Shown here piece by piece: positions 10,518 through 64,000 of a stretch of DNA of 64,000 nt. How positions within the stretch are numbered: position 1 is the stretch's first letter; every line of letters starts with the position of its first letter. A program made the position numbers and the translations under genes. Origin of the DNA: Histomonas meleagridis (taxonomy: Eukaryota; Parabasalia; Tritrichomonadida; Dientamoebidae). The notes under the pieces were generated by a model, which searched no databases, was not told the DNA's origin, and saw only the letters and a list, made by a program, of their open reading frames with translations. Location of the stretch: contig WSYJ01000166.1 in NCBI GenBank assembly GCA_020186115.1, positions 167,283 to 231,282 of the forward strand, read 5' to 3'.

Positions 10518-10840
10518 TTATACACCTATTTTGGCACCTTTTTCACAAAGAAATTTTTTTATTTCTTTGTAACCCATCTTAATAGCAATTTCAATAGCTG
10601 TTTCAAATTATTGAAACATATTTCAAATTATTAAAACATATTCCAAATTATTAAAATGAATATATTTTGCATTAACATCAATTCCTTTATCTAAAAGTAA
10701 TTTTACTATTTCTATATTATTATTTCTTACTGATATATGAAGTGCTGTTTCAAATGATTAAAACATATTTCAAATTATTAAAACATAAATAAAATTATTA
10801 AAACATATTAAAAATTATTCAAATGAATAGTTTTTGCATT
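10518..10840 (-). repeat. Ankyrin tail: two single-repeat units with AT spacers
   Basis: After the main frame stops, a unit reading TALHISVRNNNIEIVKLLL and a final unit TAIEIAIKMGYKEIKKFL ending KGAKIGV-stop (10518) follow on the same strand. Asn-codon to Thr-codon distances are 92 nt (10840 to 10748) and 72 nt (10673 to 10601). The difference is exactly one copy of a 20-nt spacer unit, ATATGTTTTAATAATTTGAA, repeated in tandem inside the spacers. Read straight through, the spacers contain stops. They behave like introns of variable unit number, but splicing is not shown. Confidence 0.65.
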
Positions 10841-11803
10841 AACATCAATTCCTTCTTTATCTAAAAGTAATTTTACTATTTCTATATTTCCTGATTTAAC
10901 TGAGTATGGTAAAATTGTTTTTGGGATTTGTTGACTTTCTATATCACTTTCTATTATGAATGTATTTCCTTTTGATGCTATTTCTTCTATAATTTCATTA
11001 TTTATTTTCATTCCTTCTTTTTCTAAAAACATGAAGATTTCATAATTATGAAATTCTATACATTTTTTCCCAAGATATATTAAATTTTTTTCACTTAAAT
11101 TACAATTATCTTGATTTTCGATATCAGAATTCGATTTTGTAAAAGAAGAGTTTGATGATGAAAATTTTCCAATTTTATTTTCATAATGGTAACGAAAAAT
11201 TTCATTTCGATGAAATTCTATTGCTGTTTCATATGCTTCTTTAAATGATGAATTGTTTTGTTCACATAAATGAATAATTTCTATGTTTCCACCTGCAATT
11301 GCATATTTAGATGTATATTTAATATTCGAATTATTTAATAATATATATTTAAAACATTTAATCGAACCAAAAAATGCTGCATAATCAATTAATGAAACAT
11401 TTTCAGTATTAATAAATGAACATCTTTCATAAAGTGATGGCTTAATAAATTGATTAAAGTCAAATTCATTATTTGATGATATTTCTTGAAGCTTTTCTAA
11501 ATCATCATTTCGAAGTACTTTGGCAATTTCTAATGGATTAACTCCTTTGTTTACATATTTCATATGAAGTTTCCAATCATTTTTTGATAATTCATCAAAT
11601 GCTGAGATGAACTCATCAAGGATTTGTGGTCTTGGAAATTTGTTCTTCAAATAATTTATTTCTTCTTTTGTTTTATATTGAGAAAAATTTAATGTGTTCA
11701 TGTTCTTTAATGAAGATGGTTCTAGTATTTTTTCTTCGATAATCTTTTCAAGAAGGAAATATGATTCTTGCTTTTCTATTCCCAGCAAATATTCATAAAA
11801 TGT
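10841..11803 (-). pseudogene. DUF3447/ankyrin protein, N-terminus missing
   Basis: The frame aligns with the neighbouring DUF3447 genes from YEYLLGIEKQESYFLLEKII onward (compare KETKESYFLIENLI in the 15388-16563 gene), with the shared blocks EIAKVLRNDDLEKLQEI, PSLYERCSFINTENVSLIDYAAFFGSIKCFKYILL and EIIHLCEQNNSSFKEAYETAIEFH. About 100 N-terminal codons present in the relatives are absent. A TGA stop sits just upstream, and the first in-frame ATG is at 11701, inside the domain. So it is either a 5'-truncated copy or the start lies on an unrecognised exon. The frame itself reads on to a stop at 10808; the part below 10841 is the first spacer. Confidence 0.7.
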
Positions 11804-12479: not shown

Positions 12480-12551
12480 GGCCTCGTGGCCCAATGGATA
12501 AGGCGTGTCCCTCCTAAGGATAAGATTGCGGGTTCGACCCCTGCCGGGGCC
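12480..12551 (+). tRNA. tRNA-Arg (anticodon CCT)
   Basis: A 72-nt cloverleaf: acceptor stem GGCCTCG pairs with CGGGGCC (one G-T), D-arm GCCCAATGGATAAGGC, anticodon stem TGTCC/GGATA with loop CTCCTAA giving anticodon CCT (reads AGG), and T-arm GCGGG-TTCGACC-CCTGC. A-box (TGGCCCAATGG) and B-box (GGTTCGACCCC) promoter elements are internal. No intron and no encoded CCA. Confidence 0.96.
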
Positions 12552-12552
12552 C

Positions 12553-13755: not shown

Positions 13756-13917
13756 ATTGACTTTGTCAATAAAATCATTGTTTTCGTAATTTTTAAATTT
13801 CGTAATTACATTTGGTGATGAAAAGTTTATTAATTAAGTGTTTTACGATATGAGTTTAAACTTTCATTATTTTTAAATTGATGTGCTTTTGCGTATTGCT
13901 TCAAGCACATTAAATAT

Positions 13918-15387
13918 TTATTTATGACCATTTTCTGATACATGTACAAGTACTATTTTAAATAATTTATATAATTTCCAAATATTATTTTGAGATTTAA
14001 AACTATTAAAATAAATTTCATATAAAAGAAAGAATTATTTTTAGCATTAATATCAATTCCTTCTTGTTCAAGAAGTAATTTAACGATTTCTGTATGATCA
14101 TTTTCAGATGCTAAAATAAGTGCTGTATCAAATAATTTAAACGATTTCCAAATATATTTTTAAAACATTGAATTATTGTTATAAATTTTTAATAAAATGA
14201 ACAAATATCTTTCGCATTAATATCAATTCCTTTTTGTGCAAGAAGTAATTTAACTATTTCTATATGACCTTTTTCAGCTGCACACATAAGTGCTGTATAA
14301 AATAATTTAAATAATTTCCAAATATTATTTAAATACATAAAATTATTGAAGCAAATTTCAAATAAAAGAAAGAATTTTTTTTAGCATTAATATCAATTCC
14401 TTCTTGTTCCAAAAGTAACTTAACAATTTCTGTATGTCCATTTTCAGATGCCCAAATAAGTGCTGTTTGAAATAATTTGAATAATTACCAAATGTTTTAT
14501 TAAAAAATATAATTATTAAGATATGCATTAAATAAAACATACAAATATTTTGAATATTAACATCAATACTGTTTTGTTCGAGAAGTAATTTAACCATTTC
14601 ATTGTCACCATTTTGGGATGCAATCATTAGCAATGTCCAAAATTTTTGGTATAATTTCCAAATATTATTTTGAATTTTCAAATCATTAAAAAAAGCATTA
14701 AATTAAACATATTAATTGATTTAGTATTAATATCAATTCCGTTTTGTTTAAGGAGGATTTTAATTATATTTATTTGTTTTTGATTATAAGCCAAGAAAAG
14801 TGCTGTTCGGAATACATTAAATAATTTCCAAATATTATTTTGAAATATAAAATAATTAAAAAAAATTTGAAATAAAACTAAAAAATATCTTTAACATTGA
14901 TATCAATTCCATCTTTTTCGAGTAATATTTTAACAATTTCTATGAATCCTTTTTCAGCTGAATTCATAAGCGCCGTTTTAAATTATTTAAATAAAATTCA
15001 TATATTATATTGATATTTCAAATTATCAAATTCATCATAAAAATTAACAAATGACATTTACTTTTAGTATTTATATCAATTCCTTTTTGTTCAAGAAGTA
15101 ATTTAACTATTTCTGTATTACCATTTTCAGATGCCCAAATAAGTGCTGTTTTATATTATTGAAATGGACTCCTAATTTTATTTTAAAATACAAAATAATT
15201 AATATAAATAACATCTAAAACAAATAAAAATCAATAGCATTTATATCAATTCCTTTTTGTTCAAGAAGTAATTTAACGATTTCTATATTTCTTATTTTAG
15301 ATGCATAAATAATTGCTGTATCAAATAATTAAAAAGATTTCCATTAGATAATTTCTAATAAAAAAACATTAAAATAAATTTCATATA
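13918..15387 (-). repeat. Ankyrin tail: eight single-repeat units plus a short last one, with fixed-length spacers
   Basis: Downstream of the main frame, single ankyrin units start (Thr codon) at 15319, 15149, 14976, 14806, 14636, 14466, 14296 and 14126. Each reads like TALIWASENGHTEIVKLLL followed by EQxGIDINAK. None has an internal stop. A last short unit (IVLVHVSENGHK-stop) starts at 13956 and ends at 13918. Distances from the Asn codon of one unit to the Thr codon of the next are 92, 92, 95, 92, 92, 92, 92, 92 and 92 nt. The spacers contain stops and shift frame. They share a left edge like ATTTATTTGTTTTATTT and a right edge like ATTTGGAAATTATTT followed by AAATTATTT. Synonymous variation in the Thr-Ala-Leu codons (aca/acg, gca/gcg) shows these are coding. 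Interpreted as exons of the 15388-16563 gene separated by about 68-nt introns. Confidence 0.7.
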
Positions 15388-16563
15388 TCATAAATAAATA
15401 TTTCTCGAATTAATGTCGATTCCTTCTTGATCTAAAACATATTTAACAAGTTCAATATTTCTTGATTCAATTGAAAAAATTAATATATTTTTAGGAATTT
15501 TGTTAATTTCAAGAAAACATTTGACAAGAAATGTATTTCCATTTATTGCTGCTTCATTAATGATAGAATCATTAATTTTCATTCCTTTTTCGAGCAAATA
15601 TGATAAAATTTCGTAATTTTGATAATAAATACATTTCTTTCCAAAATCGTCTAAATTTTTAAATTCATTAATTTTGGATTCAAAAAGATATTTAAAGATA
15701 TCATTTTGATGGAATTTAATTGCGGTGTCAAATGATTTTTTAAATGATGAATGATTTTGTTCACATAAATGAATAATTTCTTCATTTCCACTTGCAATTG
15801 CATATTTACCTGTACCTTCAATGTTTGCTCCATTCATAAGTAAATATTTAAAACATTTAACTGATCCGAAAAATGCTGCATAATCAATTAATGTAACATT
15901 TTCTTCATCAATAAATGAACATCTTTCATAAAGTGATGGTTTAATAAATTGATTATAATCAAAATTTGATTGTGATGATATTTCTTGAAGTTTCTCTATT
16001 TCATCTTTTCGAATTATCGATGCAATTTCATTGGGATTAACCCCTTCTTTAATTAACTTCTTATGAAGTGCCCAATCATCTTTTTTAAGTTCTTCTAAGT
16101 TTACAATTTTATAATATTTTATATCTTCAGCTGCTTCATCGCTTATTTCTTCATCTGATTTGTGATGTACAAAATATAAATTCATTTTATTTTCAATTGC
16201 GCTTGAGTCAAGTAATTGATGATTAATCAAATTTTCAATAAGGAAATAAGATTCTTTGGTTTCTTTATTAAGAAGAAATTGTTTGAAAACTTCACTAATT
16301 TTAAATTTTTTTTTATTGCTTTCTTCAAATGTTTCAATTTCATTTAAAAAATGAAAATATAAATCAAATTCTTTAAATGGTCTGTAAAAAGATAAATATA
16401 TTATTTGACAAATAATTAGATTATAAGAGTATAAGTAATTATCATTAAATATTTCCAAAATTGAGTGAACTGATTGAGAAACATTGTTATTATTCAGACA
16501 ATCAACAATTTTATTAATTGAAAGGAGTAAATTCCATTCACTGTTGCTTTTTAGCTTTTGCAT
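15388..16563 (-). CDS. DUF3447/ankyrin protein, main exon
   Basis: A 391-residue frame from ATG 16563. Order: helical N-terminal region (1-110), the family core with EIASIIRKDEIEKLQEI and PSLYERCSFIDEENVTLIDYAAFFGSVKCFKYLL (about 185-245), then ankyrin-type helix pairs (EEIIHLCEQNHSSFKKSFDTAI, NYEILSYLLEKGMKI, NTFLVKCFLEINKIP, NIELVKYVLDQEGIDIN). The frame stops right after GIDINSRNIYL, exactly where a spacer would begin, and eight further ankyrin units follow on the same strand, so the real protein is probably about 270 residues longer. Such proteins are a huge family in trichomonads with unknown function; ankyrin repeats bind other proteins. Confidence 0.85.
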   Translation of the reverse strand: MQKLKSNSEWNLLLSINKIVDCLNNNNVSQSVHSILEIFNDNYLYSYNLIICQIIYLSFYRPFKEFDLYFHFLNEIETFEESNKKKFKISEVFKQFLLNKETKESYFLIENLINHQLLDSSAIENKMNLYFVHHKSDEEISDEAAEDIKYYKIVNLEELKKDDWALHKKLIKEGVNPNEIASIIRKDEIEKLQEISSQSNFDYNQFIKPSLYERCSFIDEENVTLIDYAAFFGSVKCFKYLLMNGANIEGTGKYAIASGNEEIIHLCEQNHSSFKKSFDTAIKFHQNDIFKYLFESKINEFKNLDDFGKKCIYYQNYEILSYLLEKGMKINDSIINEAAINGNTFLVKCFLEINKIPKNILIFSIESRNIELVKYVLDQEGIDINSRNIYL

Positions 16564-18762: not shown

Positions 18763-19095
18763 TATTAAAAATAAATGAATTATTGATCATATGAACAATA
18801 TCAGATATCATAAGAAAATAAGTTAAACATATTTAATTGATCAAATTCGATAAAAATGCATAATAAGATCAAATAAATAGCTATAAACGATGAGAAAACA
18901 TGCTAAGTAAAAATTAATAAAATTAACGATTGAGTATTGATTTTCATATGAATATACAATGTAATATGATGAAAAAATATTTTAACATACATTAGAGATG
19001 AAAAATTATGAAGCAATAAGTAAGTTGATGAATGAATATCATCGAAAAATTGAATGGCAATTTTTATTAACATTAATTTTAATATTTGACAATCT
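18763..19095. other. Spacer between two transposons, 333 bp
   Basis: AT-rich DNA with no open frame of note and no feature recognised. Confidence 0.5.
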
Positions 19096-22819: not shown

Positions 22820-23674
22820 TTATTGAAAAAAAAATGGGATTGTGAATTGGATGCCCATTTTCTTATTCAGTAATTTTGCAATTTCATAATGAGAATTTGA
22901 AGATGCCAATTCCAATGCTGTTTGAAATAATTTGAATAAACATTAAATTTTTATATGAAAAATTAAAAATTTGGAATTGACCTGAAACAAAATGTATAAA
23001 CAGTTTTAGCTTGTAAATCTATCCCTTTTTGATTAAGTAACAGTTTAACAATTTCTATATAACCATATTTTGAAGCATGCATAAGTGCTGTAAAAAATCA
23101 TTTTTACAAATTTCGAATAATATTTTGAAATCTCAAATTATTTAGGTAAATTCTAAATCAAAAAAAGAAAAGTCTTTACAATTAATATCAACATTTCCTT
23201 TTTCAATAAGTAATTTTACAATTTCAGGGTACCCTTTTAATGAAGCATATATCAGCGGTGTTCTAAATAAATTAAATATATTCCAAATTAGATTATAAAA
23301 CCCAATATTATTAAAATATACATAAAATTATATATATTAATACCTTCTTGATTTAGATTTACACCTTCTTGATCAATTAATAATTTAATAATATCAATAT
23401 GACCTTTTTGAATCGCTTGAGTAAGTACTGTTTGAAATATTATTAATAAATTTGAAATAAATTTTTGAAATTTGAAATTAACAAAAATGATCACATTTCT
23501 GACTAAGATTTATTCCTTCATGATCAAGAAGCAATTTAACAATTTCAATGTCACCATGTGTACATGCACAAAAAAGAGGTGTTTTAAAAATTTATAATAT
23601 ACAGAAAATCTTATTTTGAAATATTAAAATTATTATATAATCTTTAATTAAAACAATAAAATATTCTTAATATT
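22820..23674 (-). repeat. Ankyrin tail of the 23648-25048 gene: five single-repeat units
   Basis: Units begin (Thr codon) at 23582 (TPLFCACTHGDIEIVKLLL), 23431 (TVLTQAIQKGHIDIIKLLI), 23261 (TPLIYASLKGYPEIVKLLI), 23091 (TALMHASKYGYIEIVKLLL) and 22921 (TALELASSNSHYEIAKLLN). The last ends IPFFFQ-stop at 22820. Asn-to-Thr distances are 92, 73, 92, 92 and 92 nt. The spacers carry stops. No unit has an internal stop. Same organisation as at 13918-15387, with clearly diverged spacers. Confidence 0.68.
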
Positions 23675-25048
23675 AACATCAATGCCTTTTTGTTGAAGAA
23701 ACACCTTAGCTATTTCAGTATAACCTTTATCAACTGCCAATAAAAGAGCTGTATTAAACATAAAAATGAAATTCCAAATAGTATTTTTATATTTTAAAAA
23801 ATTATATAAAATATCATCTCTTAAATTAAGGTTATCTTTACTTCTTTTAAGAATATAATTAATAAGTTCCAAATTTCCCGATTCGGTAGCATATAATAAA
23901 ATATCTCTTGGCATTTTATTTTTTTCAAGAAAATGCCTTACCAAATATAAATTTCCCATTCTAGCTGATTCATTAATAATAGTTTTACCTACATGCATAC
24001 CTTCTTCTTCCAAAAACGAAAGAACATCATAATTACAATATTTACTACAAAATACTCCTAATTTTGCAAGTTTATAAGGTTTTGCATCAACTTGTACTAA
24101 AACTCCATCAATAAAATCATACAATGAATAGTTTTCTAAACTTAATTCTTCTAACTCATTTTCATAAATAAAATGAAATATATCATTTTGATGAAACTTA
24201 ATTGCAGTTTCAAATGCTCCTTTAAATGATGAATGTTTTTGTACGCATAAACGTATTATTTCAATATTACCACCAGCTACAGCATATTTTCCAGTATGCG
24301 TTAAATCAGCATCATTGATCATTAAATACCGAAAACATTTAATTGATCCAAAAAATGCTGCATAATCAATTAAAGATATATTTTCTTCATTAATGAATGA
24401 ATATTTCTCATAAAGCGCTGGCTCAATTTTTTGATTAAAATCAAAATCTGTTTGTGTTGCTTTTTCTTGAAGCTTTTCTATTTCATCATTTCGAATTATT
24501 TTAGCTATTTCTGATGGGTTTGTTCCTTCATTAATTAATATTTTATGAAGGTTCCAATCATCTTTATGAAGTTCATCAATATTATCATTAAATATTTTTA
24601 CTGATGGATCATTAGAATAACATTTACTTTTTGATCTTGTATTATAATGCACAAAATATTTCTTGCCAATAGTTTTGGTTATACTGGAGCCTATGAAATT
24701 TTGTTTAATCATCTTTTCAATAAAGTAATATGAATCTTGTGTGTTATTTTTTAAAAGAAGCTGAGAGAAAATATCAATAATTTTAGTAATATTTTTTTTT
24801 TTTTCTTCTTCTTTCAATTGCAAAGATTTTAAATAACTTAAATATATATCAGCATCTCCATTTCTTGAAATAAATGCAGAATAAATTAATAAACAAATTA
24901 AAAGATTGAATGAATAGGGATAATTTTGATCAAATAAATTTACTGTTTTTTCAACAGAAGATTCAATATTTTCATTGTTTAACATAAATATAATTTGTTT
25001 AACTTCAAAGAGTATTTGCATATTATTGTTTTCTTTTGTTTTCGCCAT
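23648..25048 (-). CDS. DUF3447/ankyrin protein, main exon
   Basis: A 466-residue frame from ATG 25048 (MAKTKENNNMQILFE). Helical N-terminus, then EIAKIIRNDEIEKLQEKATQ, PALYEKYSFINEENISLIDYAAFFGSIKCFRYLM, EIIRLCVQKHSSFKGAFETAIKFH and further ankyrin helices. Near the C-terminus one spacer-like segment, from NLRDDILYNFLKYKN to TIWNFIFMFN, is 75 nt and free of stops, so here the frame runs through it into one more ankyrin unit (TALLLAVDKGYTEIAKVFL). This in-frame spacer keeps the conserved ATTTGGAA block. The frame ends after DVNIKNILLF at a spacer; five more units follow. Confidence 0.85.
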   Translation of the reverse strand: MAKTKENNNMQILFEVKQIIFMLNNENIESSVEKTVNLFDQNYPYSFNLLICLLIYSAFISRNGDADIYLSYLKSLQLKEEEKKKNITKIIDIFSQLLLKNNTQDSYYFIEKMIKQNFIGSSITKTIGKKYFVHYNTRSKSKCYSNDPSVKIFNDNIDELHKDDWNLHKILINEGTNPSEIAKIIRNDEIEKLQEKATQTDFDFNQKIEPALYEKYSFINEENISLIDYAAFFGSIKCFRYLMINDADLTHTGKYAVAGGNIEIIRLCVQKHSSFKGAFETAIKFHQNDIFHFIYENELEELSLENYSLYDFIDGVLVQVDAKPYKLAKLGVFCSKYCNYDVLSFLEEEGMHVGKTIINESARMGNLYLVRHFLEKNKMPRDILLYATESGNLELINYILKRSKDNLNLRDDILYNFLKYKNTIWNFIFMFNTALLLAVDKGYTEIAKVFLQQKGIDVNIKNILLF

Positions 25049-57573: not shown

Positions 57574-58392
57574 ATATTTAATCTTTTTATTTTATATTTT
57601 TAAATATGATTTGAAGTTTATTATAATTATAAAAAGAAGCTTTAATGTACGCATCTCGATTAGGTAAAATTGAAATATTACAATTTCTTCTTGAAAAGAA
57701 AACAATTAATATAAATACAAAATATATATATTTTCTTTTTTTGAAATTTTTTTATATTGTTTTATATTTTAAAATAATGATTGGTGTATATTTTAGTGAT
57801 TTCTTACACCTCTTATGTCTGCATCTAAAGAAGGTCAAACTGAAGCTATTAAATTACTCCTTCAACAAGAAGGAATTGATATTAATGCTAAAGATATTTA
57901 TTTATTTTATTTGATGTTTTTTTCTAATGACATAATATTATAAACTAATATTTGGAAATTATTTTAAATATTTTTAACTGCACTAATGTTTGCATCTAAA
58001 GAAGGTCGTTCTAAAATCGTTAAATTGCTTCTTCAACGAGAAGGAATTGATGTTAATTCTAAAGATTTTTATTTGTTTTCTTTGATGTTTTTTTCTAATG
58101 ACATAATATTATAAATTCATTTATGGAAATTATTTTAAATATTCTTAACAGCACTAATATATGCATCTAAAGAAGGTCGTTCTAAAATCGTCAAATTGTT
58201 TCTTCAACGAGAAGGAATTGATGTTAATTCTAAAGATATTTATTTGTTTTATTCAATGTTTTTTCAAATGACATAATATTATAAATTCATTTATGGAAAT
58301 TATTTTAAATATTCTTAACAGCATCCGATCATGCCTCCGCAGGTTATTTTAGTAGTATCGTTCAGATATTTGAAGATTATAAACATAAATAA
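57574..58392 (+). repeat. Ankyrin tail of the 56409 gene
   Basis: Units at about 57642 (ALMYASRLGKIEILQFLLE), 57806 (TPLMSASKEGQTEAIKLLL), 57977 (TALMFASKEGRSKIVKLLL), 58148 (TALIYASKEGRSKIVKLFL) and a degenerate last unit at 58318 (TASDHASAGYFSSIVQIF) with stop at 58390-58392. Asn-to-Thr distances are 92, 83, 93 and 92 nt. The two middle spacers share a block running from TAATGACATAATATTATAAA. The units stay open although the main exon is frameshifted. Confidence 0.65.
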
Positions 58393-58860
58393 TCACAAAA
58401 TTTAAGCGAAATACAAATTAAATTAAATTATTAATAAAATTTCGTAAAAATGTATTAAATCATTCACAATGTTTTTGCCATCGCATTTTACTGTAATACA
58501 ACCGAACTGAGTGCGTTCTTATACTGTCGCAACGTTTCTTTCGCTGCACATCAAATCACTTCCACACAACGCCGTTTTACTTCATCAGACTGAGTGCGTT
58601 CTGATACTGTCGCAACGTTTCTTCGCTGCACATCAAATCACTTCCACACAACGCCGTTTTACTTCATCAGACTGAGTGCGTTCTTATACTGTCGCAACGT
58701 TTCTTCGCTGCACATCAAATCACTTCCACACAACGCCGTTTTACTTCATCAGACTGAGTGCGTTCTGATACTGTCGCAACGTTTTCTTTTTCTTTTTCTT
58801 TTACATAAAGAAAACGAAATTTGGTAAAAAACTTTTGTTTATTAATTTTTACCTTCTGAC
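58393..58860. other. Intergenic with an 82-bp tandem repeat
   Basis: Lies between the ankyrin tail and the 3' end of the clathrin gene. About 110 bp of AT-rich DNA precede the repeat array and a pyrimidine-rich stretch follows it. Confidence 0.7.
58505..58785 (+). repeat. 82-bp tandem repeat, about 3.4 copies
   Basis: Copies start at 58505 (83 bp with one extra T), 58588, 58670 and 58752 (partial). Each begins (G)ACTGAGTGCGTTCT and contains ACTGTCGCAACGTTTCTT, CGCTGCACATCAAATCACTT and ACACAACGCCGTTTTACTTC. Copies are nearly identical, alternating only T/G at one site, so recently expanded. GC content is higher than in the flanks. Confidence 0.95.
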
Positions 58861-61800
58861 TCAAAACGGCGGAAACTGCGCGTTGAACGTTGGGAAGTTT
58901 CCTGCTGAGTTCGTTCCGTTGAATGTGTTCTGTGCATTCGATGTCTTCGCTGCTGCTGCGAATGGGTCTGCGCTCGCTACGAACGTGTTGTTGCCCATGT
59001 TGAAGCCGCCTGTCGAGTTCGCAATGCTGTTGCTGTCGGGGAACGGCGCATTCGAAGGCGCAAAGCCCGGCGGCGCCTGAGAGAGCGAAACTGCCATTTG
59101 CGCAACTTCTTTCGTTTCGTCGATTTTTCTCGTCCATGTCGCCCATCTGCGATGTCAACTTACTGATGATTTGGTTCTGTTCGCGAAGTGACTGAATGAG
59201 ATACGGCATCGCAAAGTCGATGCAGTTGTTGCGCCACGCCAACTCTAAAACAACATCCGATGTAATTAAGTCGTAGCAGACAAATGTGCACGCGGCGAAG
59301 CATTCGTATAATTTCTCGTCAACAAAGTAATGCAAAAGCGATTCGGCAATATCTGACTTCTGCGACTGCGCTGCTGTTTCGATGCAGTCACCGTACAATT
59401 TGTCCTTCTTCGATAATGTTATCGCTTCGTTCCATCGCTTCGACTTACGGTATATGTACGATGCGATCCGACGGAACTCCAAACACTCGTGGTGCTCAAG
59501 CGAGCGCGCTAATGTGACTGACTCAAACAAATCAAATGAATCAATAGAGTGGCGAAGTGATTCGTAGTCACCGTCTTCGATGTACATTTGGTTCAGCGCT
59601 TCGTTGACTGCCTGGATGTTGTTGCTCTGGATAGACGCTAAATACGTTTTGATAAGCTGCAAATTGTTACTTCGTCGGAACATTTCGACAACGCGCGTAG
59701 AGTCGATCTTTTGCCCAATTACGCCTAAAAGTTCGTTTAAGTCTAACGGCGAATAATTCAAGTAAAATGTAAGTGAGCGATATAATATGTCCGCGTTCGA
59801 TACCTGCGAAATTAAGTCTTTGAAGTGCCCGTGCTCCCACGATGTCGACGGGTGTTCCATCATAACGAGGACGGCGTTGTCATATTCGCTGTATTTCTCG
59901 TATGCAAATGTAAGCTCCTTCCACATGTGCATCAAATTCAGTTGTTTGATGACTTTGAACAGTGCAATCTTTTGATAATACGTCTTAAGGTGCTCCAATA
60001 CTTTCTCTGGTTGATGTTTCGCATACAAAACGGCAAGTTCAGTGAAGATGCCGCCGTGCGCACGTTCTAATGACATCGCAGCTTCCAATAATTGGATGAT
60101 TTGCGTGAAGTAGCCCAAGTTTTCATATAACTCAATGACGTCTGTGATTAAGTCTGCTTCAACAACAACTTGAAGACCTGCTGACTGCGCCAAACTGAAT
60201 TCGCCCGCCAGCACGCACGCCTTGTTGACGGCCTTCCACGCGGACGATGTGCCAGCTTTGCGCGCTGCTTCAATCGCTGACTTGAATTCGTTGAGTTCTA
60301 ACAATGTCTCCGTGAGTCGCGTGTAGTCTTTGATCGCTGTGTATATGATTTTCGCTGCTTTGTATAATTTGCATTCGAAGCATCGGTCTGCAACTTCTTT
60401 CTCGCGCGCTGAGTTCGGGCCTGATGTAAGTTCTTCAAGTTCTGCTAATTTGTCTGTTTTAGCATATGCAAAACATAATTCTGTTTCTATAATCGGATCT
60501 CGATTTTGGATTTCACGTGCAAGTTCTAAAAATGTAACAAGCGCACCGTATTGGTTCTGTTCTTCACACAATTGGATGACTTTGTTGTACTCTTTGGTGT
60601 CGCGCGCTTTAACAAATGAATCAATCGCATCTACAACTAATCCTTCTGCAAGTTGAGCACGGCCAACTTCGCCCCCAAACGGCGGGTTCGTCACAGTGCT
60701 GCGCCCAATCTGATGCTGCTTGAATCGACTTCTTATAATTTAACATAACTTTGACAGCTTCGACATTTTGATTGAATTTCTTATATGACGCAATCGCTTC
60801 ATCGTAAAGCTGTGATTGGATCAAATGTTCGCAGATTTTGTCCCACGTGTAGTCATTTAAGCGAGTGACATATGTCATGACGCGTGATGTATCTGATTTA
60901 ATCGCTGTGATAATTAATAAGTTCTGTAATGATGTGTTGTTCTGGAATTGCGGTGACTCCATAACAACTTTCTCTAATAATCCTAAAAGTTGCGTAGGAA
61001 TATTCGCATCAATGAATGCTTTGACTGTCTGTGACACTTTGTCTGGATCGTCGCACTCTGGTAACGCGGTGGATATAACTGCATCGACAACAAGTTTCAT
61101 GTGCTCATTCTCTGGTGATAATACACGCGCCCACAGCTCTGGATCTTGGCGTGCAACGCAGTAACGCGCTTGCTCTTTGTAGAGTTGATGTGTATTAGTT
61201 AATTCAATTAATTCATTGTCGCATTTGCCTTTGGAATATGCAATGCACGCTAAGTGCGCATCGCGTTTAGATAATATGTCCCCCAACAAATTTAGGGATC
61301 ATAGTATTGGTTCTCGCGTAATAATTTTTCTCCATTACGATTGGATAACACTGCTAACAAAACAATCCCATTGTTCGTGGCAGTATCAATTGATCCGGCT
61401 TGTGCACGCGCATAAAGAATTGGCTCAAGGATTTTAATGCGATCGCGTTTCATCGTTTGTGTAATTAAATCGTCAATTGGCGCTGTGTGTTGAACTGAGT
61501 TAAGTAATTTGGTGATGTAATCGTTAGGCGCTTCAATGTCAATTAATGCTCCAATAACGCGACCGGCCATATCTGTGTTGAACTTTTGAACATATGTCTC
61601 GAGTTCGCGTAATGCGCCTTTCTTATATAAATATTTGGTCAAATCTTCAATAAAACCAAATCGATTGCATAAAACAATAATTGGAACTTTGTCGCTTAAG
61701 TCTTGTTGAATTAAGAAATCTCGAACACGCTCTGGTTGTAAGTGCTGACTTTCGCTGCACATGTTCTCAACTTCTTGGTAGTGGCCTAATTTAGTCGCAG

Positions 61801-63972
61801 CTTCAATGTAACGGAAGTGAATGTCTGGATCATCGCACGTGTTGACAACTTGCGCTAAGAAATAGTAAATCCCTTCGCTCGAATTCGTTTCATGGAATAA
61901 ATTAATTAATGTGTCAATACCCAATTTCTCCCAATATGTACTAGCAATACGAACAACAACTTGAACATTACCTCGTGGATTATTTAATAATAATTCACGT
62001 AAACAGTCAATGGCCCATTCTGCTGACATCGTAGAGAAGTATTGAACTAAGAAATCTTGTGATATGTTTTGAACATTAACGATGCAGCGTTTGATCGATG
62101 GTAAATCGGTGTAATGTTCTAACGCACGTTGGAAATTACCGGCGCTTTCACAAAGTGCTGCAATGCGTTGGCGATCATAATACGTGAAAATGTTCTTAAC
62201 AAATAATTCTTCGGCAAGTTTCGGCATGTTCTTAAGTGCAATCTCAAATAACATCGTTTGTAAATCGGAATCTTCTTCGCGATCTGTTTGTAATACATCA
62301 ATTAAAAATCGTATCGCTTGACGAATCATTTGGAATTGAACTAATAAATTAACAACTTGTTTCGCGTCAACAAGCGGCTGCCCGTTGTTCGCAACATGTG
62401 TTAAAAGTGGTTCTGCTTTATCTGGCGCTGTACGCGCTACAATGGTAATGATTTGCATCCAGTTCGGCGTGTATGACATCTTTTGGCAATAGGCTTGAAG
62501 TTTATCAAACGCATTCATCTCTGCAAAAGTCGCAACAACTTTCTCTGAGACATTAGCACGTAAATAAATGGCAACTGCAATGCGCGGGTCAGGGCGGCAG
62601 ACATCCCCCAACGCTTCTGACGGCGTGAGTTTGTCCTCTTTGATCCATTTCTCAATAAGATTCGTCTTGTTCAAATTAACAACAATTCGACATAATTCAA
62701 TAGATTCGACTTCGTTAAGTTTCGTTATATTTAACAATTCGTTGAAATACTGCAAAAGAGGTGGCGCACCGCCCATAGTTTGAATGCTTAATAACTTTTT
62801 GAATCGTTTGCATATTACGTAATGAACCACCGGGCGAATTGGCAGCACAATGCGCGGCTTCAACATAATTACCTTGTCGAATCAATTGATCAAGTTGTTG
62901 ATTCATAAAATCGCCAGAAATCTGAAGACCGGCACTCGATGCAATGTGTGACGCTGACTGCGGATTGCCGCGCGTTTTGGCTACAAATTCAATGATCGTG
63001 GAATCATTAATCGTAAGTTTCGTCATACGACCATCGCGTGATAATGCAATAATACCTCCTTCGCGTGTTAATGACGCATGAATAAATGGCGTTTGTGAAA
63101 CTCGTGCTGAAATATACACAAATGGCGTTTCAACTTCAACTAAATACAAATATCCCATCTTCGTGAGCAAATACGCTGTGTCATACTTCTGCGAAAACAA
63201 TAATTGAAGTGGAATATCTCCTTGGGCATCATTTGCAATGGGTAAATCAACGTTCTTCTTACCAAATTGTTGGGCAGCTGGGGATGCACCTAATGGAATA
63301 ATGTTCATAAACATCCCATTTTGATTCTTATTGGAAAAAGATTAAAATTGGAACAGTTTGATAACGGCCAAATTCAAACGCAAATGCATCAATCATTTGT
63401 GATGCATTACGTTCTCGTGAATAAAGTTGTAATTTTCCAACGATTTGATTACCTTCTTGTGCAAGACCTGAAATACAAACCCACTGTTGGTCATGTGACA
63501 TACTATACTTCATAATACTTCCATTAGAAAGTGGTGGTTGAACTTGGAAGATAGGAATTGGATTGTTTTGTGAAGAAAGTGACCAGTGATAAACTTGCCC
63601 TGAAGAAACAAATGCTAAAATATCATCATCTAACCATGTCCAATAACTAACTGTTTGCCCAGGATTCAATTGAAATGATTTAAGACGTTGACGTGCTCCA
63701 AGATCAAAAACTTGTAAAACATTACCTCCTCGCATAGCAATAACATTCCGTGATGGATGCATAACTGCTGAATCGGCCGTGTTCTTATGACGTGTAACAC
63801 TGTTGTTTTGTTGAAGATCTATAATAACAACATTTCCTTCTGTTTCTGTAACTTCACGAACACATAAATATTTGTCCTTCGATAATGATGTATTAGAAAT
63901 ACTGGCAAATTTGGGATCAATCCCAAATTGCTGGAAGTTGAGAACTTCCGTGGTGTTGATGGGAACCGACAT
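58861..63972 (-). CDS. CLTC: Clathrin heavy chain, complete gene with six +1 frameshifts
   Basis: Reading from ATG 63972 (MSVPINTTEVLNFQQFGID) to stop at 58861 the whole clathrin heavy chain is present, about 1,700 residues: beta-propeller, linker (PLLQYFNELLN), then repeated clathrin leg domains (FTYYDRQRIAALCESAGNFQRALEHYTDL, KRDAHLACIAYSKGKCD, AHGGIFTELAVLYAKHQPEK, WNEAITLSKKDKLYGDC, ITSDVVLELAWRNNCIDFAMPYLIQ) and a Pro/Asn/Phe-rich tail. Six single-base insertions split it: runs at 63335-63339, 62796-62800, 61280-61284, 61295-61297, 60672-60676 and 59124-59128. Removing one base from each restores alignment to the family. Clathrin is conserved and no second copy is seen here, so sequence error is the likeliest cause. 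An AACCGT motif lies 14-19 nt before the ATG. Confidence 0.93.
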
Positions 63973-63985
63973 GAAACAAGTGATG

Positions 63986-63991
63986 ACGGTT
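63986..63991 (-). promoter_or_regulatory. AACCGT upstream motif of clathrin heavy chain
   Basis: ACGGTT on the plus strand, 14-19 nt before the ATG at 63972. Confidence 0.4.
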
Positions 63992-64000
63992 TGTGTCAAT

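Follow-up and report, generated by a model that had tools for sequence, protein, structure and literature searches.

Seventeen-nucleotide inserts between apparent single codons of ankyrin turns in a gene family of Histomonas meleagridis

A 64,000-nucleotide (nt) stretch of the Histomonas meleagridis genome (contig WSYJ01000166.1, positions 167,283 to 231,282; here called the window) carries, on its minus strand at window positions 13918-16563, an array of ankyrin repeats separated by spacers of nearly constant length. These spacers are composed of 17-nt inserts that appear to lie between successive codons of a D-x-x-G-x-T ankyrin turn, a single codon standing between one insert and the next. 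Judging from the sequences, we consider it fairly probable that each such array is one gene whose turns are interrupted by 17-nt noncoding inserts and whose protein would be made after exact removal of all of them. If the joined proteins are made, this genome divides coding sequence into pieces as small as one codon at thousands of places, with no known splice signal. Introns and exons could then be smaller than the limits recognized so far, a removal mechanism not yet described would be indicated, and the annotation of this poultry gut parasite would represent one of its large gene families as short fragments.

The array opens with a DUF3447/ankyrin main frame, continues with eight intact ankyrin units, and ends in a broken ninth unit at 13918. 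A first-pass annotation, made from the letters of the window, had described eight intact units and a short last one on the same strand after the main-frame stop, and this was confirmed. Its spacing also held on measurement: the intervals from the Asn codon of one unit to the Thr codon of the next were, in order, 92, 92, 95, 92, 92, 92, 92, and 92 nt, and the ninth interval, into the broken last unit, was again 92 nt (eight of nine at 92 nt and one at 95 nt). Tandem Repeats Finder detected the array at 13910-15429 with a period of 170 and 8.9 copies. The pattern is neither accidental nor confined to this site: among the matches listed, 521 bp of the array matched other places in the genome at 74 to 87% identity. 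The stop of the main frame falls inside the first insert, so that an unspliced product would end there; the joined frame ends in loop 9, at the TAA at 13999-13997. The parts of the array are as follows, with slashes marking the inserts.

15388-16563, minus strand: main open frame, 391 amino acids (aa), DUF3447 plus ankyrin repeats; stop within the first insert
15320-15411, minus strand: loop 1, N-S-R-N/E/F/G/D; inserts 15399-15383, 15379-15363, 15359-15343, 15339-15323 (fixed 17+3 register set by eye; the scored parse put the third insert 3 nt off)
15239-15319, minus strand: ankyrin unit 1 body (Thr to Asn)
15150-15241, minus strand: loop 2, N-A-I-D/V/C/G/K; inserts 15229-15213, 15209-15193, 15189-15173, 15169-15153 (chain of four in the chain scan; the scored parse put the first insert elsewhere)
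15069-15149, minus strand: ankyrin unit 2 body
14977-15071, minus strand: loop 3 (95 nt, one additional codon), N-T-K-S-K/Y/E/E/K; inserts 15056-15040, 15036-15020, 15016-15000, 14996-14980 (first insert a weak match, by eye)
14896-14976, minus strand: ankyrin unit 3 body
14807-14898, minus strand: loop 4, N-V-K-D/Q/Y/G/R; inserts 14886-14870, 14866-14850, 14846-14830, 14826-14810 (chain scan and scored parse)
14726-14806, minus strand: ankyrin unit 4 body
14637-14728, minus strand: loop 5, N-T-K-S/N/E/G/W; inserts 14716-14700, 14696-14680, 14676-14660, 14656-14640 (chain scan and scored parse)
14556-14636, minus strand: ankyrin unit 5 body
14467-14558, minus strand: loop 6, N-I-Q-N/N/Y/G/Q; inserts 14546-14530, 14526-14510, 14506-14490, 14486-14470 (chain scan and scored parse)
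14386-14466, minus strand: ankyrin unit 6 body
14297-14388, minus strand: loop 7, N-A-K-K/E/Y/G/Y; inserts 14376-14360, 14356-14340, 14336-14320, 14316-14300 (chain scan and scored parse)
14216-14296, minus strand: ankyrin unit 7 body
14127-14218, minus strand: loop 8, N-A-K-D/K/N/G/D; inserts 14206-14190, 14186-14170, 14166-14150, 14146-14130 (scored parse)
14046-14126, minus strand: ankyrin unit 8 body, the last intact one
13957-14048, minus strand: loop 9, N-A-K-N/E/stop/G/K; inserts 14036-14020, 14016-14000, 13996-13980, 13976-13960 (scored parse)
13918-13956, minus strand: decayed remnant of the ninth unit, with ATA in place of the ACA codon for Thr and with an early stop

In the H. meleagridis genome (43.28 Mb, 121 contigs) we sampled 48 nonoverlapping stretches (276 kb) that matched the main frame or the array; a 90-nt unit profile found 434 units in them. 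One decayed array, on contig C72 (38 pairs), is omitted from most counts and given separately. Distances between neighboring units in the 48 stretches were chiefly 170 nt (280 pairs), 153 nt (35 pairs), and 171 nt (16 pairs, 12 of them in C72), and outside C72 the first two classes made up 295 of the 339 adjacent pairs (260 and 35, respectively). The 153-nt class corresponds to three 17-nt inserts, the first of the four being missing. Loops outside these classes often differed by whole codons (+3 nt, giving periods of 173 and 156) or by a codon plus an insert (20 nt, giving periods of 150 and 190), the steps overall being -17, +3, +20, and -20 nt. The closest adjacent units in the 48 stretches were at least 144 nt apart, so no sampled neighboring pair was free of a spacer. 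A text-pattern search for insert-free turns of this family gave no matches, with a pattern that was too strict. Long ankyrin frames free of stops and of inserts (600 to 1578 aa) do occur in the genome, at C40:1073162, C50:466894, C46:21393, and C57:309791, with 35 to 51% identity to a typed consensus.

When 260 four-insert loops are aligned, the spacer varies little except at three triplets, which are spaced by 20 and 40 nt. The loop begins with AAT GCT AAA GAT and runs into ACA GCA CTT; between these stand four 17-nt inserts, the first, second, and fourth each followed by a variable triplet and the third by GGA. The consensus 17-mers of inserts one to four are ATTTATTTGTTTTATTT, ATTTATTTTAATAATTT, ATTTCAAAATAATATTT, and AATTATTTAAATTATTT. 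Read without the inserts, the loop gives N-A-K-D-x-x-G-x-T-A-L, which is the ordinary ankyrin turn, D-x-x-G-x-T. The spacer of about 68 nt proposed in the first-pass annotation corresponds to 4 × 17 nt, and its proposal of one intron per repeat is not supported, since loops hold four but also three, five, and up to 23 inserts with one codon between them. Its broader idea, that the units after the main frame seem to belong to one protein with it and that some fixed length must be skipped, is supported. Among 1,145 sampled inserts the consensus was ATTT-N9-ATTT, the four bases of the initial ATTT having frequencies of 91, 74, 95, and 93% and those of the final ATTT 94, 97, 93, and 96%, in order. 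There were 359 distinct sequences among these 1,145 inserts, compared with 295 of 339 pairs at just two exact distances; loop length is therefore better kept than sequence.

The pattern of stops fixes the insert borders to the base. Counted from the Thr codon, the triplets at unit positions 107, 127, 147, and 167 contained no stops, whereas the register one base earlier gave 531 and that one base later gave 11. Of the triplets at the three variable positions, 96 begin with TA and 40 with TG, and none is a stop, even though the third base is A in 279 of 780; cuts placed one base to the left would leave that third base free.

Several observations suggest that the isolated codons are under selection. 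There were no stops among the 1,040 isolated loop triplets, where base composition with independent positions predicts 47.7. Units riddled with stops, which the first-pass annotation had regarded as evidence against a split gene, were not what the sample contained: the bodies of 260 units held one stop in 7,800 codons, compared with 449 and 1418 stops when read in the alternative frames. Variability peaked at unit triplets 107, 127, and 167, and the GGA at 147 was conserved. The fourth turn position was Gly in 218 of the 260 four-insert loops and in 31 of 35 three-insert loops, and residue variability was 0.92 bits at this Gly compared with 2.81 to 3.26 bits at the variable codons. In the 260 loops the first of these (x1) was most often N (76), K (68), E (44), or D (22), the second (x2) Y (65), D (60), or N (40), and the third (x3) K (58), N (51), E (34), or R (23). 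In the joined repeat, variability was highest at five residues, namely body positions 5 and 8 together with x1, x2, and x3. The last three are turn positions that are randomized in DARPins. The ratio of nonsynonymous to synonymous differences (pN/pS) was 12 for loop codons and 1.9 for bodies in 215 unit pairs no more than 5% apart, in which the inserts differed by 1.8%, and 4.2 and 1.33, respectively, in 6,630 pairs 5 to 10% apart, in which the inserts differed by 4.3%; these ratios could be raised further if copies exchange short segments. Natural selection thus seems to act on the joined protein, and its action on the isolated codons suggests that their translation in the joined frame took place when the inserts were already present.

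The arrays might instead be silent stores, as in vls-type antigenic variation, from which gene conversion copies unit bodies into expressed genes; the tandem cassettes, their common flanks, and the fast-changing residues would fit this. It is hard to see how that route would bring isolated loop codons into an expressed frame, yet they are stop-free and keep their Gly, and the 48 stretches (with no units less than 144 nt apart) contained no close insert-free array that might serve as the recipient. We regard silent stores as improbable.

The same build recurs with inserts of a different sequence. The second gene of this build in the window carries ATATGTTTTAATAATTT and close variants of it:

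10518-11788, minus strand: second gene built in this way, with its main frame at 10808-11788; first loop with four inserts (10828-10812, 10808-10792, 10788-10772, 10768-10752), second loop with three (10661-10645, 10641-10625, 10621-10605); after the inserts it reads TAIEIAIKMGYKEIKKFLCEKGAKIGV, followed by a stop at 10520-10518

The 17-mer ATATGTTTTAATAATTT has 2,213 exact copies in the genome, compared with four for a reversed control. It is followed by any triplet and ATATG, the start of the next insert, in 1,566 copies and by any triplet and ACAGC, the ankyrin Thr-Ala, in 379 copies (control, 0 in both cases), so that 1,945 of 2,213 copies stand in exact 3-nt register. The triplet before ATATG was TAA or TGA once in 1,566 copies and was never TAG. 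Three further 301-base stretches picked from the hits likewise contained ankyrin units by eye. In one sampled stretch, L071, all eight loops are 12 + 20n nt long, with n = 4, 18, 23, 4, 4, 10, 7, and 7, and its parse gave 77 inserts (up to 23 per loop) with single nonstop codons between them; beyond the inserts the frame stays open for 48 codons, up to where the stretch ends, and the later of these codons are not ankyrin-like. Two insert chains in L071 (1065-1200 and 900-980) folded as RNA better than shuffled sequences (z = -3.0 and -3.8) and are partly self-complementary. A window stretch of the same insert family gave z = -0.35, and two first-family loops gave z = -0.12 and 2.0; with three of five folded stretches no better than shuffles, RNA structure is not a common feature.

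These genes also bear on the idea that the gene simply ends at the main stop and that the rest is junk, decaying tandem repeats kept alike by duplication. Some decay is evident: the window array's last unit is broken, and body stops occur in 12 of 377 units of the 48 stretches (6 in C72, 3 in C90, 2 in C1:796461, and 1 in C36:393451). The C72 array (G000:C72:127500-137400, L061), at 39 units the longest sampled, shows length changes of 1 nt, and 6 of 38 units have a stop in the body; it is a decaying array and can be used as a yardstick. Against such an origin for the family as a whole stand the near-absence of stops in bodies and their absence in loop codons in the 260 units, the residue-specific pattern of constraint and variation, and the fact that the window gene at 10518-11788 and L071 run on past their inserts into an ankyrin end of the usual kind. 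General decay is, in our view, very improbable.

The joined window array matched 479 sequences in the Protein Data Bank (PDB), with ankyrins and DARPins among them, the best being a DARPin chain (8.8e-93); the turns aligned without gaps in three of five blocks, and in the other two the gaps lay at the DARPin-to-DARPin passages of that chain. Five units on contig C1, joined by four 17-nt cuts, scored 173.7 bits with the Pfam Ank profile (PF00023; cutoff, 21.1), whereas a single 68-nt cut at three placements gave 159.3, 155.0, and 153.9 bits. With Ank_2, the four cuts gave 168.6 bits and the single cuts 143.7, 141.6, and 141.6. The joined product thus matches the ankyrin profile above its cutoff over several repeats and has Gly at turn position 4 amid variable positions.

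An ordinary spliceosomal intron of 68 nt in each repeat, close to what the first-pass annotation proposed, would account for the length beyond a canonical turn being fixed at 68, and trichomonad introns can be short, down to 23 nt in Trichomonas (PMC12316389). However, cutting out 68 nt in one piece takes the conserved Gly and the variable codons without stops along with it and lowers the Ank score, and the model is rejected for these reasons; it would leave unexplained why inner codons change fast without becoming stops while Gly is kept. A GT..AG stretch of 68 nt was present in 1 of 260 loops, and none of the 1,145 sampled inserts has GT..AG ends, which also speaks against introns of the spliceosomal type. 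The long-type intron motif of T. vaginalis is GTATGT..CTAACACACAG. It occurred at no place in the genome (gap of 4 to 34), and CTAACACACAG alone occurred 11 times compared with 4 for the reversed control. A 68-nt intron is accordingly very unlikely.

Database proteins show where existing gene models stop. P0133 and P0136 belong to the DUF3447/ankyrin family and are listed under the name Histomonas meleagridis; the NCBI model P0133 stops at ..GIDINAQNI, where the inserts of related genes begin, so that annotated proteins of the family can indeed be too short, as the first-pass annotation had anticipated. Twelve proteins from short ENA contigs (P0121-P0132) match the main frame at 40 to 51%. One of them, P0132, reads through a three-insert loop; its best match in the Histomonas genome is 51%, and at most 57% over part of its length, and it is therefore not from that genome. 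A read-through query found such loops in 44 of the 120 proteins listed, and, among the matches listed, 47 of 59 ENA read-through loops were exactly 25 residues long (24 + 51 nt), their variable columns coinciding with x1, x2, and x3. Their inserts mostly read VYFNN..FQNNIWNFFKLF in place of the Histomonas IYFNN..FQNNIWKLFKLF, which suggests that these loops come from another organism. Proteins from elsewhere thus share the insert layout, as far as conceptual translations, retrieved with a query that favors open three-insert loops, can tell. Stop avoidance in the ENA proteins, assessed from protein letters, ran in the right direction but was not significant (Fisher P = 0.12). In Tritrichomonas foetus, P0138 (TRFO_07820) has, by eye, about 13 additional, mostly hydrophobic residues in the turn before TPIYSA, possibly a retained insert or intron.

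Three inserts make 51 nt, and the open ENA loops with their similar peptides could be taken to mean that inserts are translated, as a 17-residue peptide within the turn. The openness of the listed loops was selected by database and query, however, and in Histomonas three-insert loops that frame contains a stop in 12 of 35 cases, compared with 0 of 35 for the joined codons. Among the 260 four-insert loops, 147 are interrupted by a stop when read in the upstream frame and 254 when read in the downstream one. We consider translation of the inserts extremely improbable.

A number of points weigh against exact removal of 17-nt inserts. The analysis draws on genomic sequence and conceptual translations. 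The 1,145 sampled inserts carry no known splice signal, as AT..AC ends, like GT..AG ends, are found in none of them, and we know of no precedent for a 3-nt exon repeated up to 23 times. The arrays were gathered by similarity to the window array, so the sample is not random, and the expected stop numbers ignore the shared descent of the copies. The parser used for L071 permits 17-nt inserts only and penalizes stops. Pfam scores do not fix the exact cut: when the four cuts were shifted by -2, -1, +1, and +2, Ank gave 140.1, 174.1, 160.7, and 154.4 bits, the shift of -1 slightly exceeding the unshifted 173.7, and Ank_2 gave 173.7, 169.9, 157.7, and 184.2 bits, with +2 and -2 above the unshifted score. 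Two alignment-independent tests failed to single out 17 nt and were uninformative: a codon-usage test of skip lengths placed k = 8, 11, and 14 above 17, and a grammar parse fitted no more than 217 of 339 loops, yet it accepted 943 of 1,695 sequences with one base removed and 1,106 of 1,695 with one base added. Finally, the fourth insert appears by eye to be shortened from 17 to 8 nt in four loops, a few loops show shifts of 1 to 2 nt, and 13 loops have periods of 151, 154, 166, 168, 169, 171, or 172.

If the inserts are removed, as we think fairly probable, all of them would have to be taken out with single-codon accuracy to yield a long ankyrin protein whose binding-surface residues would diversify fast. 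From the sequence patterns we infer that this joined protein is made. As for the route, our guess is that the inserts would be removed at the RNA level as 17-nt micro-introns, probably one after another, and recognized by their ATTT..ATTT ends and fixed length rather than by GT..AG. RNA excision, which we guess to be slightly better than an even bet, comes first because it needs only recognition of ends and length. Skipping by the ribosome, ranked second because landing and take-off triplets differ, is a doubtful candidate; that no removal takes place today, the arrays having been recently silenced, is marginally more doubtful; and removal at the DNA level, which comes last, is unlikely.

Comparison with known introns gives both likenesses and differences. 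PMC8529796 reports 573 introns, at most one per gene, in a virulent Histomonas strain, and the word "ankyrin" is absent from its main text. The tiny spliceosomal introns of Stentor coeruleus (15 to 16 nt; PMC9505925) are of similar size, nearly fixed length, and AU-rich, but the Histomonas inserts lack GT..AG ends and their "exons" would be single codons in chains. Type B introns of Trichomonas (23 to 26 nt; PMC12316389) are short and uniform and occur in a parabasalid host, but they have consensus ends and a branch motif and number one or two per gene. A literature search, conducted mostly without subscription papers and preprints, found no report of such 17-nt inserts.

Programmed bypassing, in which the ribosome skips inserts that remain in the mRNA, would fit short inserts in coding sequence that are fixed in length, AT-rich, and free of splice signals; in these short, signal-free inserts the byp elements and T4 gene 60 are alike. 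Bypassing of many inserts is known for the byp elements of yeast mitochondria. Both byp and T4 gene 60 elements are longer and scattered, and in known bypassing the landing triplet equals the take-off codon. In the Histomonas loops, by contrast, the last three bases of the insert are mostly TTT (each T in 93 to 97%), while the preceding codon varies freely, and up to 23 consecutive skips would demand very high efficiency. To our knowledge, bypassing codon by codon in nuclear genes has not been described, and we rate this route as possible but rather unlikely. Another partial likeness is to the internal eliminated sequences of ciliates, which are short AT-rich inserts in genes, bounded by TA, and exactly removed from DNA in a second nucleus. 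We know of no second nucleus in H. meleagridis.

Like ankyrins and DARPins (PF00023; PDB 5le2), the joined product has a D-x-x-G-x-T-A-L turn in which positions 2, 3, and 5 vary; these are the design positions of DARPins. What differs is that the Histomonas turn is encoded codon by codon between inserts. The step of one residue per 20 nt, together with the fast-changing turn codons, suggests a route for diversifying binding proteins. A bolder and quite tentative reading, which we think rather unlikely, is a codon-cassette system in which each turn residue would be a one-codon "exon" framed by a fixed 17-nt unit that dedicated RNA machinery removes, so that one gene could yield many turn lengths and the system would generate diversity among the binding proteins of a parasite. 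With inserts at codon borders, turns would grow or shrink by whole residues (20-nt steps) and skipped codons would stay in frame; if this were true, residues could be exchanged among many genes via shared flanks.

Further features of this kind, and others, are found in the window:

23090-25048, minus strand: third DUF3447/ankyrin gene, with insert-like 17-mers beside units near 23792, 23471, and 23151 (partial parse)
57575-58323, plus strand: partly decayed array (period 170-171) of units of this kind with insert-like spacers
12480-12552, plus strand: tRNA-Arg (CCT), the only tRNA in the window
58715-63999, minus strand: clathrin heavy chain, split over five overlapping or adjoining frames
58506-58784: tandem repeat on the 3' side of the clathrin gene (82 nt, 3.4 copies, 97%)

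A chain scan of the window for 17-mers gave 18 rows, 15 of them within ankyrin genes or arrays; the rows at 19071 (plus strand), 38682 (minus strand), and 22761 (minus strand) lie outside these and look like chance. Rfam searched over the window at gathering scores returned the tRNA-Arg (CCT) as its sole match. The clathrin frame breaks were also considered as sites of 17-nt inserts; the one read closely, near 63340, has instead the appearance of a single-nucleotide shift, from an assembly error or from decay.

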